Origin: Marinisporobacter sp.
Lineage (GTDB): Bacteria > Bacillota > Clostridia > Peptostreptococcales > Thermotaleaceae
Length of the DNA: 64,000 bases
Assembly: GCA_025210395.1 (NCBI GenBank)
Contig: JAOARV010000040.1
Location: forward strand, 1-64,000
Direction: 5' to 3'
The position numbers and the translations under genes were made by a program. Below are positions 1 through 23,998 of the stretch, piece after piece. The notes below the pieces were generated by a model, which saw nothing but the letters and a program-made list of their open reading frames with translations, did no database searches and was not told the DNA's origin. The first letter of the stretch is position 1. Each line of letters begins with the position of its first letter.

Positions 1-44
1 GTATAGTTATGTAAAGTTTTTACTGCTATTAGTTTTCTTGCCAT
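1..44 (-). CDS. 5' end of an unidentified gene, cut by the window edge
   Basis: An ATG at 44-42 is preceded by AGGAG (53-57) at 8 bases. It opens a frame without stops to the window edge, encoding MARKLIAVKTLHNY. Fourteen codons are too few to name a family. The good ribosome-binding site and open frame support a real start; the product is unknown. Confidence 0.55.
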   Translation of the reverse strand, partial: MARKLIAVKTLHNY

Positions 45-343
45 TTTAAAATCTCCTTTAATTTTTATTACACTTAGTTTTTGGAAATTTTAAAATATCA
101 TGCAAGAGAATAATTTCAAGAATGAAATTGTTTATCTATAATACAGCTTACCAGAATATTTAAAATACCCCATACTACTTCCTCCATCCCTATCTGCTTA
201 TATCAATAAGCATTTTTCACCAATATAAATTCTTTTGTAACCTCATTCTCAAACCATTTATTTAAAATTACAATTTTATTTTAGCACAGTTTCCAAATAT
301 CCAATGTATGTTTAAACCTCATAAACTAAAGTATTTACCTCAA
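45..343. other. Non-coding stretch upstream of the left-edge gene
   Basis: No long ORF on either strand. The minus strand holds a 13-codon ORF (132-173, MGYFKYSGKLYYR) with GGAGG 7 bases before its ATG, and a short hairpin (AATTTCA-TTC-TTGAAATT) just after it. Otherwise the stretch is AT-rich and featureless. Confidence 0.5.
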
Positions 344-372
344 ATAAAAAAGCTACCTTTTGCAAGTAGCTT
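344..372 (-). terminator. Rho-independent terminator after the tRNA-half region
   Basis: Stem AAGCTAC (350-356) pairs with GTAGCTT (366-372). On the minus strand it is followed by a run of six T. It resembles the selB terminator near 8911. It would end any minus-strand transcript covering the tRNA-like halves. Confidence 0.7.
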
Positions 373-375
373 CTA

Positions 376-449
376 AGCCTTATGTGTAATGTTTATTGTA
401 TTCCATGCTCTACCACTGAGCTACCTTGCGAGAAACAACACATAAGGCT
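376..449. repeat. Perfect 12-bp inverted repeat enclosing a tRNA 5' half
   Basis: AGCCTTATGTGT (376-387) and ACACATAAGGCT (438-449) are exact reverse complements separated by 50 bases. The loop contains the canonical D-arm of a tRNA on the minus strand. It could form a long-looped RNA hairpin or be terminal repeats of a tiny element, though no target duplication is visible. Confidence 0.75.
394..430 (-). pseudogene. 5' half of a canonical tRNA (acceptor strand, D-arm, start of anticodon stem)
   Basis: On the minus strand GCAAGG (429-424) is followed by TA, D-stem GCTC/GAGC with loop AGTGGTA, then A and TGGAA. After that the sequence leaves the tRNA pattern, so there is no anticodon arm or 3' half downstream. 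The complementary 3' half lies at 571-610, upstream in transcription order. Either a permuted gene or two decayed tandem tRNA copies; amino acid identity unknown. Confidence 0.7.
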
Positions 450-570
450 ATTCCTATATATAACATAGACTTAATCCCTCCCTTTAGTTTTTCAACTAAT
501 TTACCAACAAAAGCTCCTAAGAAAGCAATTGCTATTATTTCAATGGAATAGATAAAAGCACTAAATTCTA

Positions 571-610
571 TTGCAAGGGTTGGATTCGAACCAACGTCAT
601 GTGCAACCTG
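571..610 (-). pseudogene. 3' half of a canonical tRNA (T-arm and acceptor strand)
   Basis: On the minus strand a perfect T-stem GTTGG/CCAAC encloses the loop TTCGAAT and is followed by CCTTGC (578-573). That strand is exactly complementary to the GCAAGG acceptor strand at 429-424. No CCA is encoded after it. The upstream bases give only an imperfect 3' anticodon stem (TTGCA against TGGAA). No 5' half lies upstream of it. Confidence 0.7.
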
Positions 611-704
611 CTTTACCCTAATATTGTATCATCATTTGTTTATATTTTCCACAAATCCCAATACTAAATCCATTTACAGTTGGAATCACTCATTTTACTT
701 AAAT

Positions 705-773
705 TGGCGGGAATATGTGGAAATCCAACCCACCTAAGACGCTCTTAACACCTCAAACTGGTTTTGAAGACCC
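705..773 (-). pseudogene. Decayed 3' fragment of the tRNA-Sec gene
   Basis: About 68 bases match the 3' two-thirds of the intact tRNA-Sec gene (5363-5430) with five substitutions, from the encoded GCCA end through the TCA anticodon loop, in the same orientation. The 5' part is absent. The T-loop is TTGGATT instead of TTCGATT and one T-stem pair is lost, so it cannot be functional. It probably marks the far end of an insertion at selC. Confidence 0.85.
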
Positions 774-986
774 TTTTTTCATCATACTTGCCAATCCTTT
801 GTATTTTCAATGATTACAACCATTCTATGTTCAATAATACGCATGGTTTAGCTTTCTTCAGCATAAGCGAGAAAAATCTATATATCAAGCCATCAATAAT
901 TTACTAAGGAAACATAAGCAAGTTAGTGTATTTGATAAATATTTTTGGATATTAATTCCCTTTTACTGTCCGTAGGTCAGACCCTT
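774..986. other. Non-coding stretch with a protein-like remnant
   Basis: The plus strand holds an open frame without a start codon (838-975, beginning YAWFSFLQHKREK). It looks like a relic of a coding region but I cannot name its family. No convincing terminator for the operon ending at 987 is visible. Confidence 0.35.
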
Positions 987-2135
987 TTACATCATTTCAA
1001 TAAATGCACTAATTCTTGTTTTAAGCTGTCCTAAATCATTTTGAGAATAATCTGTTTCAATATTCATATATGGAATTTTTTTATTTCCTTTCACAACTTC
1101 TTTTACGCTAAAAGATTCTACATTATACGTATGACAGGCTTGTAATATAACATCTATCACCCCATCTGCCTTGTATTCATCTATAAGAGTTTCTAATAAA
1201 TCCATTCTATTTTTGTTTGGACTTGTACATGAACAAGGTACTTTTAAATATTTCTCAGCGATTGCATCTATAGGATCTTTGCCTTCATCTATAAGCTCTT
1301 GCTTTTCTTTGATTCCACTGCAATTTTCATAGCAGACAACAACACCGCCCTCTTCTTCTATGATTTTAATGACTTTCTCTACTGCTCCACCCATAGGGCA
1401 ACCTGTAATGAGTATTCTTGGTCGATCTCCACTCACTCTTCTTTCTCCATTTTCATAAGCTTCTTTTACTGTTTGGGTCATTTCTTTTAATTCTTTTATA
1501 ACTCTTTCCTTATCAAATCCAGTTTTTGCATGATTAAATACCAATTGAAGCTCTTCTCCATATATGGCTGGTGGTGTTAATTTAGAAAGGCTTGCAAAAT
1601 CCTTTAATGCGTTTCTTTCCTCATTTCTTATTTTTATTTGCTCTCTTAACTTTTCATCTGTAATGGTTACACCAAATTCCTTCTCTAGTCTTTCTTTAAG
1701 ACAAACCACTTCTCGTCTCCACATCTCAAAATCTTCTTCTCTTTCAATGGTTTGTGGAAGCTGCATAATATGCATAGGCTTTATTCTTCCTAAGTACTCA
1801 TACATTTTTTTCTTTCCATCACATGTGGTTTCCCCTATAACTAAATCAGAAAAAGAAAAATATGGACATTTGTCAGTTATGGCAAAACCATAACTAGATT
1901 TGATCAAAGGACATAAATTCCTTGGAAGAACTTTTTCTGCATCTGGTATGGTTGACTCATTTGTACTACAAAGGGTAGCTGGAATTCCTCCTGCTGCTGC
2001 AATCACTTCCCATGGGGTAAATACACAATATGTCCCCACGACTTTTGCTCCATTTTCCTTTGCATTCTTTATTTCAATGACACCATTTTTACTGTTTTCT
2101 CTTAAATTTTCAAAAATATCCTCTACTTTAATCAT
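987..2135 (-). CDS. 2-hydroxyacyl-CoA dehydratase family protein, double-cubane-cluster type (YjiM/HgdB-like)
   Basis: 382 residues of the HgdB/BcrB/YjiM family, Fe-S proteins that receive electrons from an ATP-driven activator to perform low-potential reductions. Cysteines expected of a cluster-binding family lie at about 37, 56, 75, 90 and 105 in the N-terminal half and 246, 268, 272, 301, 303 and 334 in the C-terminal half. One polypeptide without an obvious second subunit fits the double-cubane reductases more than the classical heterodimeric dehydratases. No activator ATPase gene is adjacent. The start codon lies inside the end of the transporter ATPase gene (8-base overlap), so the two are probably translationally coupled. 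Substrate unknown. Confidence 0.8.
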   Translation of the reverse strand: MIKVEDIFENLRENSKNGVIEIKNAKENGAKVVGTYCVFTPWEVIAAAGGIPATLCSTNESTIPDAEKVLPRNLCPLIKSSYGFAITDKCPYFSFSDLVIGETTCDGKKKMYEYLGRIKPMHIMQLPQTIEREEDFEMWRREVVCLKERLEKEFGVTITDEKLREQIKIRNEERNALKDFASLSKLTPPAIYGEELQLVFNHAKTGFDKERVIKELKEMTQTVKEAYENGERRVSGDRPRILITGCPMGGAVEKVIKIIEEEGGVVVCYENCSGIKEKQELIDEGKDPIDAIAEKYLKVPCSCTSPNKNRMDLLETLIDEYKADGVIDVILQACHTYNVESFSVKEVVKGNKKIPYMNIETDYSQNDLGQLKTRISAFIEMM

Positions 2136-2919
2136 TATTCACACATCCTTTCATCATTTTCCCTTCGTTTGCACGATTCATTAAATCCATTAATCTTTTA
2201 AAATATTCTGCAAATTCTTCGTTCCATCGATCTCTTGGATAAGGAAGATCAATATGAAAATCTCCCATGATTTCTCCAGGCCTTGCACTCATTATAATCA
2301 CTCTTGTTCCTAAAAAAACTGCTTCCTCTACACTATGGGTTACAAAAACAATGGTTCTCTTTTCTCCAAGCCAGAAAGAAATCAATTCTTTTTGCATCTG
2401 AAATCTTGTATAGGCATCTAATGCTCCAAAGGGCTCATCCATATATAATATTTTAGGAGATGTGGCAATAGCTCTTGCAATGGCTGCTCTTTGCTTCATT
2501 CCTCCCGATAATTCGTAAGGAAAGCTTTCATGAAAATCTTCTAGTCCAAATTTTTTCAATATATCCTTTGCTTTTTCGTATCTTTCTTTTTTAGCCATTT
2601 TTCGAAATTCCAATCCAAGGACTACATTATCAATAATATTTCTCCATGGCAATAGGGAGTATTCTTGAAAAACCATTCCTGCTTGAGAAATAGGTTTTTC
2701 TAAAGGCTTATCCATTACCTTAATGCTTCCTGTGCTTGGTTTTATCAATCCTTCCATTAATCTTAAAAGTGTAGATTTCCCTGAACCACTAGGGCCAATT
2801 AAGCATACAAATTCTTGATCTTTAATATTAAGATCTATATTTCTTAAAGCACATACTGCTTGTTTTTTTTCTAAAAAAAATGTTTTACTTAGTCCATTGA
2901 TTTCTATTATTTGATCCAT
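2128..2919 (-). CDS. ABC transporter ATPase, nitrate/sulfonate/taurine (SsuB/TauB) family
   Basis: Energises import by the permease and lipoprotein encoded just upstream. Walker A GPSGSGKST lies near residue 40, signature LSGGMKQRAAIARA near 138 and Walker B ILYMDEPFGALD near 157, with the switch histidine in FVTHS. ATG at 2919 is chosen because AGGAGG lies 5 bases before it; the GTG one codon upstream is too close. Third gene of the operon 5076-987, overlapping the reductase gene. The substrate cannot be read from the ATPase. Confidence 0.88.
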   Translation of the reverse strand: MDQIIEINGLSKTFFLEKKQAVCALRNIDLNIKDQEFVCLIGPSGSGKSTLLRLMEGLIKPSTGSIKVMDKPLEKPISQAGMVFQEYSLLPWRNIIDNVVLGLEFRKMAKKERYEKAKDILKKFGLEDFHESFPYELSGGMKQRAAIARAIATSPKILYMDEPFGALDAYTRFQMQKELISFWLGEKRTIVFVTHSVEEAVFLGTRVIIMSARPGEIMGDFHIDLPYPRDRWNEEFAEYFKRLMDLMNRANEGKMMKGCVNND

Positions 2920-2928
2920 CACATCCTC

Positions 2929-3762
2929 CTATTTAGACATACTTTGCCATTTAAAGAATTTCACTTCAATCTTTTGAAAAATCCAGTCAAACAATCCTCC
3001 TACACAGCTAATAGCAATCATTCCTGCTATTACAATATCTGTTCTAGCAACTGTATAGGCATGGGTAATCAAATAGCCAATCCCCGCAAGACTTCCCGGA
3101 AGCATTTCTGCAGATACAAGACACATCCACGCAACCCCTAATCCTACACGAAGTCCTGTAACAACAGATGGTAGCGCCCCTGGCAGAAGAATCTTTAGTA
3201 AGATATCTTTTTTTTCTGCTCCTAAAGTTAATGCAGAATCTATCAATGTTTTTTGAACACTTTTTACACCATAGATGCTATTTGTAAGAATAGGAAAAAA
3301 AGCACCAATAAAAATAATAAAGATCATGGCTGCTTTAATATTATTAAATAATATATATAAACTTCCTTTTTCAATACCCAATACACTGGCCATACTTGTT
3401 ACACCAAACCATGCTAAAACAAGAGGTACCCAAGCAAGAGGGGCAATAGGCCGAAATAAATTGATAAATGGCATTAGAAATTCTTCTACTCTTTTGGAAT
3501 ATCCTATAAATAATCCTATAGGAATTCCTAAACCAGCAGCCATGATATATCCAATACCAACTCTTAAAACACTGACCAAAACATTTCGAATAATAGAACC
3601 TATACTTAGTAAGTTCATGTTTGGTTTACTCAGTATATCAAACACTTTGCTTACAGTGGGCAATACAATTGGATTATCCAACTTTATAGAAAAACTCTGC
3701 CAAAACATAATAAAAAATATAGGCAAAATAACAGGAGACACATAACGCATTGCTCTGTTCAC
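2929..3762 (-). CDS. ABC transporter permease, SsuC/TauC family
   Basis: Integral membrane subunit of the importer, with about six hydrophobic segments over 277 residues. It has the EAA-type loop with GAEKKDILLKILLP near residue 190, which contacts the ATPase. The start is GTG with AGGAGG 9 bases upstream. It lies 9 bases from the ATPase gene and follows the lipoprotein gene after a 159-base gap containing a hairpin, so it is probably expressed at a lower level than the binding protein. Confidence 0.87.
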   Translation of the reverse strand: MNRAMRYVSPVILPIFFIMFWQSFSIKLDNPIVLPTVSKVFDILSKPNMNLLSIGSIIRNVLVSVLRVGIGYIMAAGLGIPIGLFIGYSKRVEEFLMPFINLFRPIAPLAWVPLVLAWFGVTSMASVLGIEKGSLYILFNNIKAAMIFIIFIGAFFPILTNSIYGVKSVQKTLIDSALTLGAEKKDILLKILLPGALPSVVTGLRVGLGVAWMCLVSAEMLPGSLAGIGYLITHAYTVARTDIVIAGMIAISCVGGLFDWIFQKIEVKFFKWQSMSK

Positions 3763-3883
3763 TTCTAAATCCCTCCTAAAACATGTTTATAAAAATATAT
3801 TAAATGATCTCTATCCACATATATAAGCACATTGAATATTGAATTTAAAATATAAATTTTGAATTTGTTTATCTATAGTAGGA

Positions 3884-3908
3884 TAAAAGCAGGGGATATC
3901 CCCTGCCC
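3884..3908 (-). terminator. Intercistronic hairpin between binding protein and permease genes
   Basis: GCAGGGGATATCCCCTGC (3889-3906) is a perfect GC-rich palindrome followed on the minus strand by TTTTATCC. It is a likely partial terminator or RNA-stabilising hairpin, setting a higher yield of the binding protein than of the membrane parts. Confidence 0.6.
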
Positions 3909-3921
3909 TGCAATATAAAAC

Positions 3922-5076
3922 CTATTGATCTAATGCTTTTTTTATAAAACTAAAGTCAAATAAATCATTTTGTACATCCTTATATTCTTTTTCTACAAAG
4001 CTTCCACTAAATTTATTTGCTTTTTTCAATGTATCATATACTAACCCTAAATTAGATACCCACGTTTCACTAGGATCTGCTGTATATTTTATACTTGATT
4101 TTTGGGCTGCTTCTTCAGAAACCCCTGTGAAATCAGCAGTAATTTTTGCTGCTTCATCTTTATGTTCATTGGCATAATCTGCAGCAACGCGCATAAGTTT
4201 CATCAAATCTTCTAAAACAACAGGGTTTTCTTCTATTGTCTTATCTGTAGCAGAAGCTACACAGCAAGGGAAATCATACCATTCTCCTTCTGGAGGTAAA
4301 TACTTCATATCTAATATGATTTTTCCTACATTTTCTGTCTCTGCTAATTCTGGATAAGGTGAAGGTCCCACCCATGCATCTACTTGATCACTCACTAATA
4401 CTGGAAGAAGGTTCGTTGTTCCTTTTACATTCACTAATAAAATATCTTTTTCTAAATCTTCTGGATCAAAGGTATAGCTAATACCTGCTTTTTTCAGTGC
4501 AGCTTCAAATAAAATAACTGGTGCACTTGTTGGTGAATGATACCCAACCTTTACGGGTTCTTTCTTTTCTTTGATAAGCGTTAAAAATTCTTCCCAATTA
4601 TTCACAGCCGCATCTTTTTTTACAACCAATCCAATTCCTTCTGTATGTACAGGACATAACATTTTCACTTTTGTTCCTTTATCAATTGCTGAAATATTTG
4701 CTGCACTAGATGCAAAAGCAATATCAATATGCCCTTGTGCCATCATGGTCATAGTCTCTGAACCGCTTTTACAAACAACCAATTCTATATTTGCTACTGG
4801 ATTTTCTTCTTTCATCAAAGTATATTTTTGACGATTCACTACTTCCTTTAAGTATACCCCTGAATCTTTGAAAGCTTCTCCTTTTTCAACCGCTACCATA
4901 AGTGGTGTTTGATGATTTGTAAATATATAAGATAACTTTAAATCTGGAACCTTTACTTCTTGCTTCGCTTCTTCTTTTGTTTCATTACTTGCCCCATCTC
5001 CACTTGCACCACATGCAGTAAAACAAAGTAGTGAAAAAATCAGTAAGCAACACACCCATAAATGCTTTCTTTTCAC
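3922..5076 (-). CDS. ABC transporter substrate-binding lipoprotein (TauA/SsuA/NMT1-like)
   Basis: 384 residues. A signal peptide with a hydrophobic core ends in a lipobox (LCFTAC), so the mature protein is probably anchored at Cys22. The body matches the nitrate/sulfonate/thiamine-precursor binding fold: a GHIDIAFASSAA segment and a DAWVGPSPYPELAE segment line the expected cleft. GTG start with GGGGGA 7 bases upstream. First gene of the operon ending with the double-cubane protein. Ligand not deducible; the downstream reductase suggests a small organic compound that is then reduced. Confidence 0.85.
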   Translation of the reverse strand: MKRKHLWVCCLLIFSLLCFTACGASGDGASNETKEEAKQEVKVPDLKLSYIFTNHQTPLMVAVEKGEAFKDSGVYLKEVVNRQKYTLMKEENPVANIELVVCKSGSETMTMMAQGHIDIAFASSAANISAIDKGTKVKMLCPVHTEGIGLVVKKDAAVNNWEEFLTLIKEKKEPVKVGYHSPTSAPVILFEAALKKAGISYTFDPEDLEKDILLVNVKGTTNLLPVLVSDQVDAWVGPSPYPELAETENVGKIILDMKYLPPEGEWYDFPCCVASATDKTIEENPVVLEDLMKLMRVAADYANEHKDEAAKITADFTGVSEEAAQKSSIKYTADPSETWVSNLGLVYDTLKKANKFSGSFVEKEYKDVQNDLFDFSFIKKALDQ

Positions 5077-5136
5077 AATAATCCCCCTTCTTTATAATTG
5101 TTAATTTTTATATTATTTAGTTTCATTTACAAAGAT

Positions 5137-5167
5137 ATTATATATAAATCTACTTCTACTTGTACAA
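5137..5167 (-). promoter_or_regulatory. Probable promoter of the transporter/reductase operon
   Basis: Minus-strand TTGTAC (5167-5162) precedes overlapping TATATA/TATAAT (about 5144-5137) with spacings of 17 and 19 bases, about 60 bases before the GTG at 5076. Plausible sigma-A type promoter. Confidence 0.5.
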
Positions 5168-5240
5168 TAGATATTTGTTATAATTTCCCTAATTGCCATA
5201 AAAAATTTTTATATTATGCAATTCATATAGATAAACTATT

Positions 5241-5286
5241 TTCAATACCTCCATTGATTTTAAATCACATGCAAATCGGTATTGAA
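5241..5286. repeat. Nested inverted repeats upstream of the operon
   Basis: Outer arms TTCAATACC (5241-5249) and GGTATTGAA (5278-5286) enclose TGATTT-T-AAATCA (5255-5267). It lies between the selC terminator and the operon promoter. Could be an operator or an RNA structure; no T-run supports a terminator. Confidence 0.45.
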
Positions 5287-5308
5287 CATACTGGTTCTTG
5301 AAAAAAAT

Positions 5309-5348
5309 CAAAACAAAAAATGGTTTCAACATCATTTGTTGAAACCAT
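5309..5348 (-). terminator. Terminator of the tRNA-Sec gene
   Basis: ATGGTTTCAAC (5320-5330) and GTTGAAACCAT (5338-5348) form a perfect 11-bp stem. On the minus strand it is followed by TTTTTTGTTTTG. It lies 14 bases past the tRNA 3' end. Confidence 0.9.
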
Positions 5349-5362
5349 TGATTTACTTTAAT

Positions 5363-5459
5363 TGGCGGGAATATGTGGGAATCGAACCCACCTGAGAAGC
5401 TCTTAACCCCTCAAACTGGTTTTGAAGACCAGAGGGCACACCAGCACCCATCTACTCCC
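5363..5459 (-). tRNA. selC: tRNA-Sec (anticodon TCA)
   Basis: 97 bases from GGGAGTAG to an encoded GCCA. The long acceptor stem and large extra arm are typical of tRNA-Sec. The anticodon loop CTTCAAA contains TCA (5425-5423), reading UGA. The T-arm GTGGG-TTCGATT-CCCAC is intact. It delivers selenocysteine through SelA and SelB, both encoded in this window, to UGA codons such as the one in selD. Its 3' portion is duplicated in mutated form at 705-773. Confidence 0.96.
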
Positions 5460-23759: not shown

Positions 23760-23998
23760 AAAAAGCACCTTGAAAAATGCTCATCCCTTGTAGGGACGAG
23801 GAATTCCCCGCGGTACCACCCTAATTGACATTAATTGTCCACTCATTGGTTTTTAAAGGTAACCATCCTATACTCCTTGAGACAAGTTCAACAGTTTACT
23901 TTATCGATTCTCACCAAACATCGACTCTCTGAAAAAATTCTACTATCTACTACTTCTCTATCATCCTATTCATTTTTTAGAATATTTCTTAGAATTTT
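23760..23998 (-). promoter_or_regulatory. T-box riboswitch of leuS
   Basis: The minus-strand leader has the T-box sequence AGGGTGGTACCGCGG (about 23808-23823), a Stem I distal AGAGAG/GGTGA region, an S-turn AGTA and a GAA followed by CTT (23886-23884), a candidate leucine specifier. The terminator stem CTCGTCCCT/AGGGATGAG (23800-23780) is followed by a T-rich run. Uncharged tRNA-Leu would pair with TGGT and permit leuS read-through. Confidence 0.92.

Follow-up and report, generated by a model that had tools for sequence, protein, structure and literature searches.

The window analysed here is a stretch of 64,000 nucleotides of Marinisporobacter sp. (assembly GCA_025210395.1, contig JAOARV010000040.1, positions 1 to 64,000), near the beginning of which lie the two halves of a tRNA in swapped order (Table 1). 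On the minus strand a T-arm (GTTGG-TTCGAAT-CCAAC) followed by CCTTGC (595-573), which constitutes the 3' half, is placed first, and GCAAGG-TA-GCTC-AGTGGTA-GAGC (429-407), the 5' half with a perfect D-arm, is placed second after a gap of 143 bases. The strands that could form an anticodon stem pair save for one mismatch. Each half occurs once in the window and neither was present, at up to three mismatches, in any of 100 dinucleotide shuffles, which rules out chance occurrence. In sequence the locus is as described in a first-pass annotation, which had reported the arms, their permuted order, strand and position as well as the single mismatch between the anticodon strands, and had proposed either a circularly permuted tRNA-like RNA or the remains of duplicated tRNA copies.

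Table 1. Features at and around the permuted tRNA halves (positions in the window).
Feature	Position	Strand	Basis or remark
End of repeat with 7 copies in the genome, likely insertion sequence	1..157	minus	contig ends here
Unit common to window and G002	324..676	minus	blastn, 86% identity
Intrinsic terminator	348..374	minus	kept in G002
12-bp stem P1, 3' arm	376..387	minus	
tRNA 5' half	401..430	minus	
Putative 5' strand of anticodon stem (TGGAA) in 5' half	405-401	minus	
D-arm in 5' half	421-407	minus	
5' acceptor strand CGCAAGG in 5' half	430-424	minus	
Intervening segment; open frame with no start codon and no coding constraint	431..571	minus	weak phrog_22289 match
12-bp stem P1, 5' arm	438..449	minus	
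tRNA 3' half: T-arm and 3' acceptor strand (CCTTGCA)	572..595	minus	
Putative 3' strand of anticodon stem (TTGCA)	602..606	minus	
Promoter-like site: TGGAAA, 17 nt, TACAAT, extended -10 TG	623..651	minus	consensus matches
tRNA-Sec 3'-half relic, att-like duplicate adjoining unit	709..791	minus	
Intact tRNA-Sec gene, source of duplicate	5363..5459	minus	

The halves belong to a larger unit of approximately 353 bp (window 676-324), the whole of which was found at 86% identity in a second Marinisporobacter sp. MAG, G002 (isolate McD1.33, contig JAOARP010000018.1). This copy retains the extended -10 box, both tRNA halves, the 12-bp stem and the terminator. By blastn each of the two genomes has one copy of the unit. 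Searches of 59 relatives, 394 order-level genomes and 391 class-level genomes found it whole, outside the window genome, in G002 only; the order and class sets otherwise gave just short matches of 22-58 bases. A search of a genome collection likewise returned the G002 record alone. Phage and plasmid sequences searched by blastn and tblastn contained no relatives, and a viral collection searched for the permuted-tRNA pattern, the peptide and the exact 5' and 3' halves yielded nothing apart from a single intact tRNA-Met of a prophage, whose 5' half is the same. The first-pass annotation had held that two complete tandem tRNAs in a sister genome would make the arrangement ordinary decay; G002 instead shows the same permuted arrangement.

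The acceptor strands of the two halves are complementary in both copies, and the placement of the 3' half upstream of the 5' half of the same tRNA is that of a permuted tRNA gene. Rejoining does not yield a complete tRNA with an anticodon loop, since this loop is undefined, and no CCA is encoded after the 3' half. The sole tRNA called by ARAGORN in the window is the intact tRNA-Sec, and Rfam at a relaxed threshold gave no known RNA family over the unit. When the halves were rejoined in silico ARAGORN called a tRNA in 69 of 144 joins of the window copy, with an anticodon that varied with the join, and in 0 of 144 joins of the G002 copy; under simulated neutral change, 96% of copies likewise cease to be called.

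Approximately 17 bases upstream of the 3' half is the extended -10 motif, and the promoter-like site has a counterpart in G002 (TGGAAA, 17 nt, TATGAT with TG), although in scans of both copies promoter-like sites were no commoner than expected by chance. The unit may still be transcribed, since both copies retain the promoter and terminator motifs. The intervening frame weakly matches a phage family of unknown function (phrog_22289, E=0.002) in the window copy only and belongs to no Pfam or NCBIfam family. An origin from DUF554, suspected by eye, was ruled out by phmmer and hhalign against 12 DUF554 proteins of relatives. A strong Shine-Dalgarno-like sequence (AAAGGGAGGG) precedes an 18-codon frame (MLYIGIALCVVSRKVAQW) at window 571-431, the end of which falls within the D-arm; this pairing of site and frame is weaker in G002 and shows no coding constraint. 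A shared end motif (GTAAATGGA) was also considered and judged a coincidence.

The two copies occupy different sites. In the window the unit starts two bases past the end (679) of homology to the 3' half of tRNA-Sec and its downstream flank. In G002 the tRNA-Sec relic is present without the unit and homology to the window ends at 703, after which break the chromosome of the window genome (G000) continues on its contig C17 at 2133. The G002 unit lies approximately 150 bp 3' of ssrA, a site at which neither G000 nor the relative G001 has a unit. Homologues of a lipoprotein gene (approximately 64-70% DNA identity) lie downstream of the unit in G002 and on the C17 side in G000. Core DNA compared between G000 and G002 is 93-98% identical whereas the units are only 86% identical, which suggests that related accessory DNA was acquired separately; together with the different sites, this argues that the unit is accessory, horizontally moving DNA. 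As with the tRNA fragments of islands, the partial tRNA sits next to an integration site, tRNA or tmRNA, within accessory DNA. No complete version of this tRNA was found at the opposite end of the element, and the flanks that were read contained no identified integrase.

Substitutions between the window and G002 copies are spread evenly along the unit (p=0.67), with 11 of 64 positions changed in the tRNA halves against 40 of 289 in the rest (17% vs 14%, p=0.62). Within the open frame 9 of 28 changes are synonymous, where 28% would be expected. The G002 copy has lost U8 (TA to AA) and one of its T-stem pairs has become an A-A mismatch. Despite the 11 changes in the halves, 19 of the 21 pairs in four tRNA stems are formed in the window copy and 20 in the G002 copy, against a mean of 15.9 in a neutral simulation in which 20 was reached in 1.2% of runs (p=0.012), the choice of the anticodon stem being post hoc; the acceptor, T and D stems alone give p=0.087 (8.7%), and other nulls applied to the four stems give 0.4 to 7%. 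This may be taken as a hint, from two sequences, that pairing lies slightly above neutral chance (p about 0.01-0.09).

We consider the unit most likely, with a probability of roughly 0.6, to be a permuted tRNA relic in island DNA, because there are two diverged copies at different sites, substitution is neutral-like, G002 has suffered losses and CCA is absent. What remains of a tRNA gene, with its 3' half placed about 143 bp ahead of its 5' half, would then be carried by accessory island DNA that in this clostridial genus integrates next to tRNA and tmRNA genes. The permuted order may have arisen in a foreign ancestor, whether phage or island, where for instance a tRNA was duplicated and the outer halves were then lost, and the unit would make a tRNA no longer. 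Counting against this reading are the stem pairing above neutral expectation, the presence of the promoter motif, the terminator and the 12-bp stem in both copies, the failure to find an ancestral tandem tRNA pair, and the lack of an identified integrase.

Alternatively, the unit could encode a small non-coding RNA of a mobile island, of which the 12-bp stem and the terminator would be the functional parts and the tRNA pieces raw material, a reading that we regard as unlikely. Stem P1 (449-438/387-376) is a perfect 12-bp inverted repeat with a 50-nt loop that encloses the tRNA 5' half; a comparable repeat occurred in 11 of 2000 shuffles, and two C-to-T changes in the 3' arm of the G002 copy leave pairing intact as G-U. 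In the window copy, whose MFE z-score is -2.4, this stem is part of the dominant fold, although the terminator contributes to the fold energy. Against such an RNA, the G002 z-score is just -1.5, the unconstrained G002 fold does not use the stem, and the substitution rate is uniform.

Stem P1 crosses the cloverleaf, so that the two compete, and this bears on the proposal of a working circularly permuted tRNA-like RNA, which we find doubtful, more so than an island small RNA. Here a transcript from approximately 618 to 341 would pair its upstream T-half with its downstream D-half, and RNase P and RNase Z would excise the intervening segment to leave, as in two-piece tmRNA, two pieces held together by base pairing, here with no anticodon loop. 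The order of the parts, the extended -10 upstream and the terminator downstream, all kept in the second copy, would suit such a molecule, as would the retained stem pairing (p=0.012), and permuted tmRNA shows bacteria to be able to process such transcripts (PMC11915505). In the window copy, however, the fold with the 12-bp stem reaches -71.7 kcal/mol against -61.7 for the permuted cloverleaf, approximately 10 more stable; in G002 the values are -61.0 with the stem and D-arm enforced and -55.1 for the cloverleaf, the latter approximately 9 kcal/mol less stable than the unconstrained fold (-64.1). The halves, moreover, change at the background rate, U8 and a T-stem pair are gone from G002, the anticodon loop is absent and only two genomes carry the unit. 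What stands of the permuted-tRNA interpretation in the first-pass annotation is therefore that true tRNA halves lie in permuted order; a functional product is unsupported in view of the background rate, the G002 losses and the competing stem. Its alternative of duplicated tRNA copies fits better, although the search revealed no tandem pair that could be ancestral. That two tandem tRNAs simply decayed at this very spot and in this lineage is very unlikely as the immediate event: complementary acceptor strands do indicate one tRNA type, but G002 has the arrangement elsewhere and not at its tRNA-Sec site, so the permuted order predates arrival at the window site and was present before the two copies separated.

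Returning to the relic, the source of its halves was sought among 16 genomes of the family. The annotation had suggested looking in relatives for an intact tRNA with the same arms, and none of the 16 has one. The nearest host tRNA is tRNA-Asn, with three mismatches in the 5' half, and the 3' half was found within three mismatches nowhere besides the two unit copies. A foreign source of the halves is plausible because the prophage tRNA-Met, present on one prophage contig, has an identical 24-base 5' half. Duplication and loss in an ancestor would remain the simplest route to the permuted order.

Prokaryotic genomes commonly contain fragments of tRNA genes left behind when islands integrate (PMC9897764). 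The unit resembles such fragments at islands and phage integration sites in being a partial, probably functionless tRNA in accessory DNA next to tRNA or tmRNA integration genes, with the tRNA-Sec 3'-half duplicate directly adjoining it, but differs in having both halves of one tRNA, swapped, with no intact copy in the genomes searched. With the permuted tRNA genes of algae and Thermofilum pendens (PMC3978253, PMC3218864) it shares a leading 3' half, an intervening segment and acceptor-stem pairing of the halves. Those genes have a bulge-helix-bulge junction, a splicing endonuclease and a complete tRNA product, whereas the unit has no anticodon loop. A splicing endonuclease of this kind is not known in bacteria. 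Permuted (two-piece) tmRNA (RF04321) is similar in its permuted bacterial gene order and in the segment between the acceptor ends; the unit differs in its normal D-arm and lack of a tag reading frame. No RF04321 match was obtained at window 1-3000 and no tmRNA match in the unit, and these genomes have a standard-order ssrA elsewhere. Reviews place permuted tRNA genes in algae and a single archaeon and record none in bacteria (PMC4033280, PMC3978253), and a literature search by title and abstract returned no bacterial case. A working permuted tRNA-like RNA on mobile islands, which would be expressed from a promoter of its own, is improbable as we judge it but would be the first in bacteria. Even as a relic, a permuted tRNA-derived unit spreading between bacterial sites may show a duplication-and-loss intermediate toward permuted tRNAs, and it cautions against inferring function from permuted halves whose arms are intact.

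Several further features were noted around these loci. The tRNA-Sec gene looks like an integration hotspot, since 3'-half duplicates of it occur in four family genomes (G000, G002, G013 and G015); in the window, ABC-transporter genes and a 2-hydroxyglutaryl-CoA dehydratase-like gene lie between relic and intact gene (709-5459). The repeat at window 1-157, probably an insertion sequence, is found in at least 7 places in the genome, several of them at contig ends. Group I introns are known in tmRNA genes, and the T-loop of G002 ssrA (L002 689-1312) is interrupted by approximately 264 bp that are probably such an intron, although Rfam called none; the insert is also present in G000 and G001 and absent from G003 and G009. 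Similar hairpin-forming intergenic repeats (GTAAATGGAAGCATAAGTTTGC...) occur at L006 7972-8042 and L057 near 5226, 3' of ssrA in G002 and 3' of tRNA-Sec in G001. Finally, a T-box leader (107 bits) lies on the minus strand at window 23789-23973.
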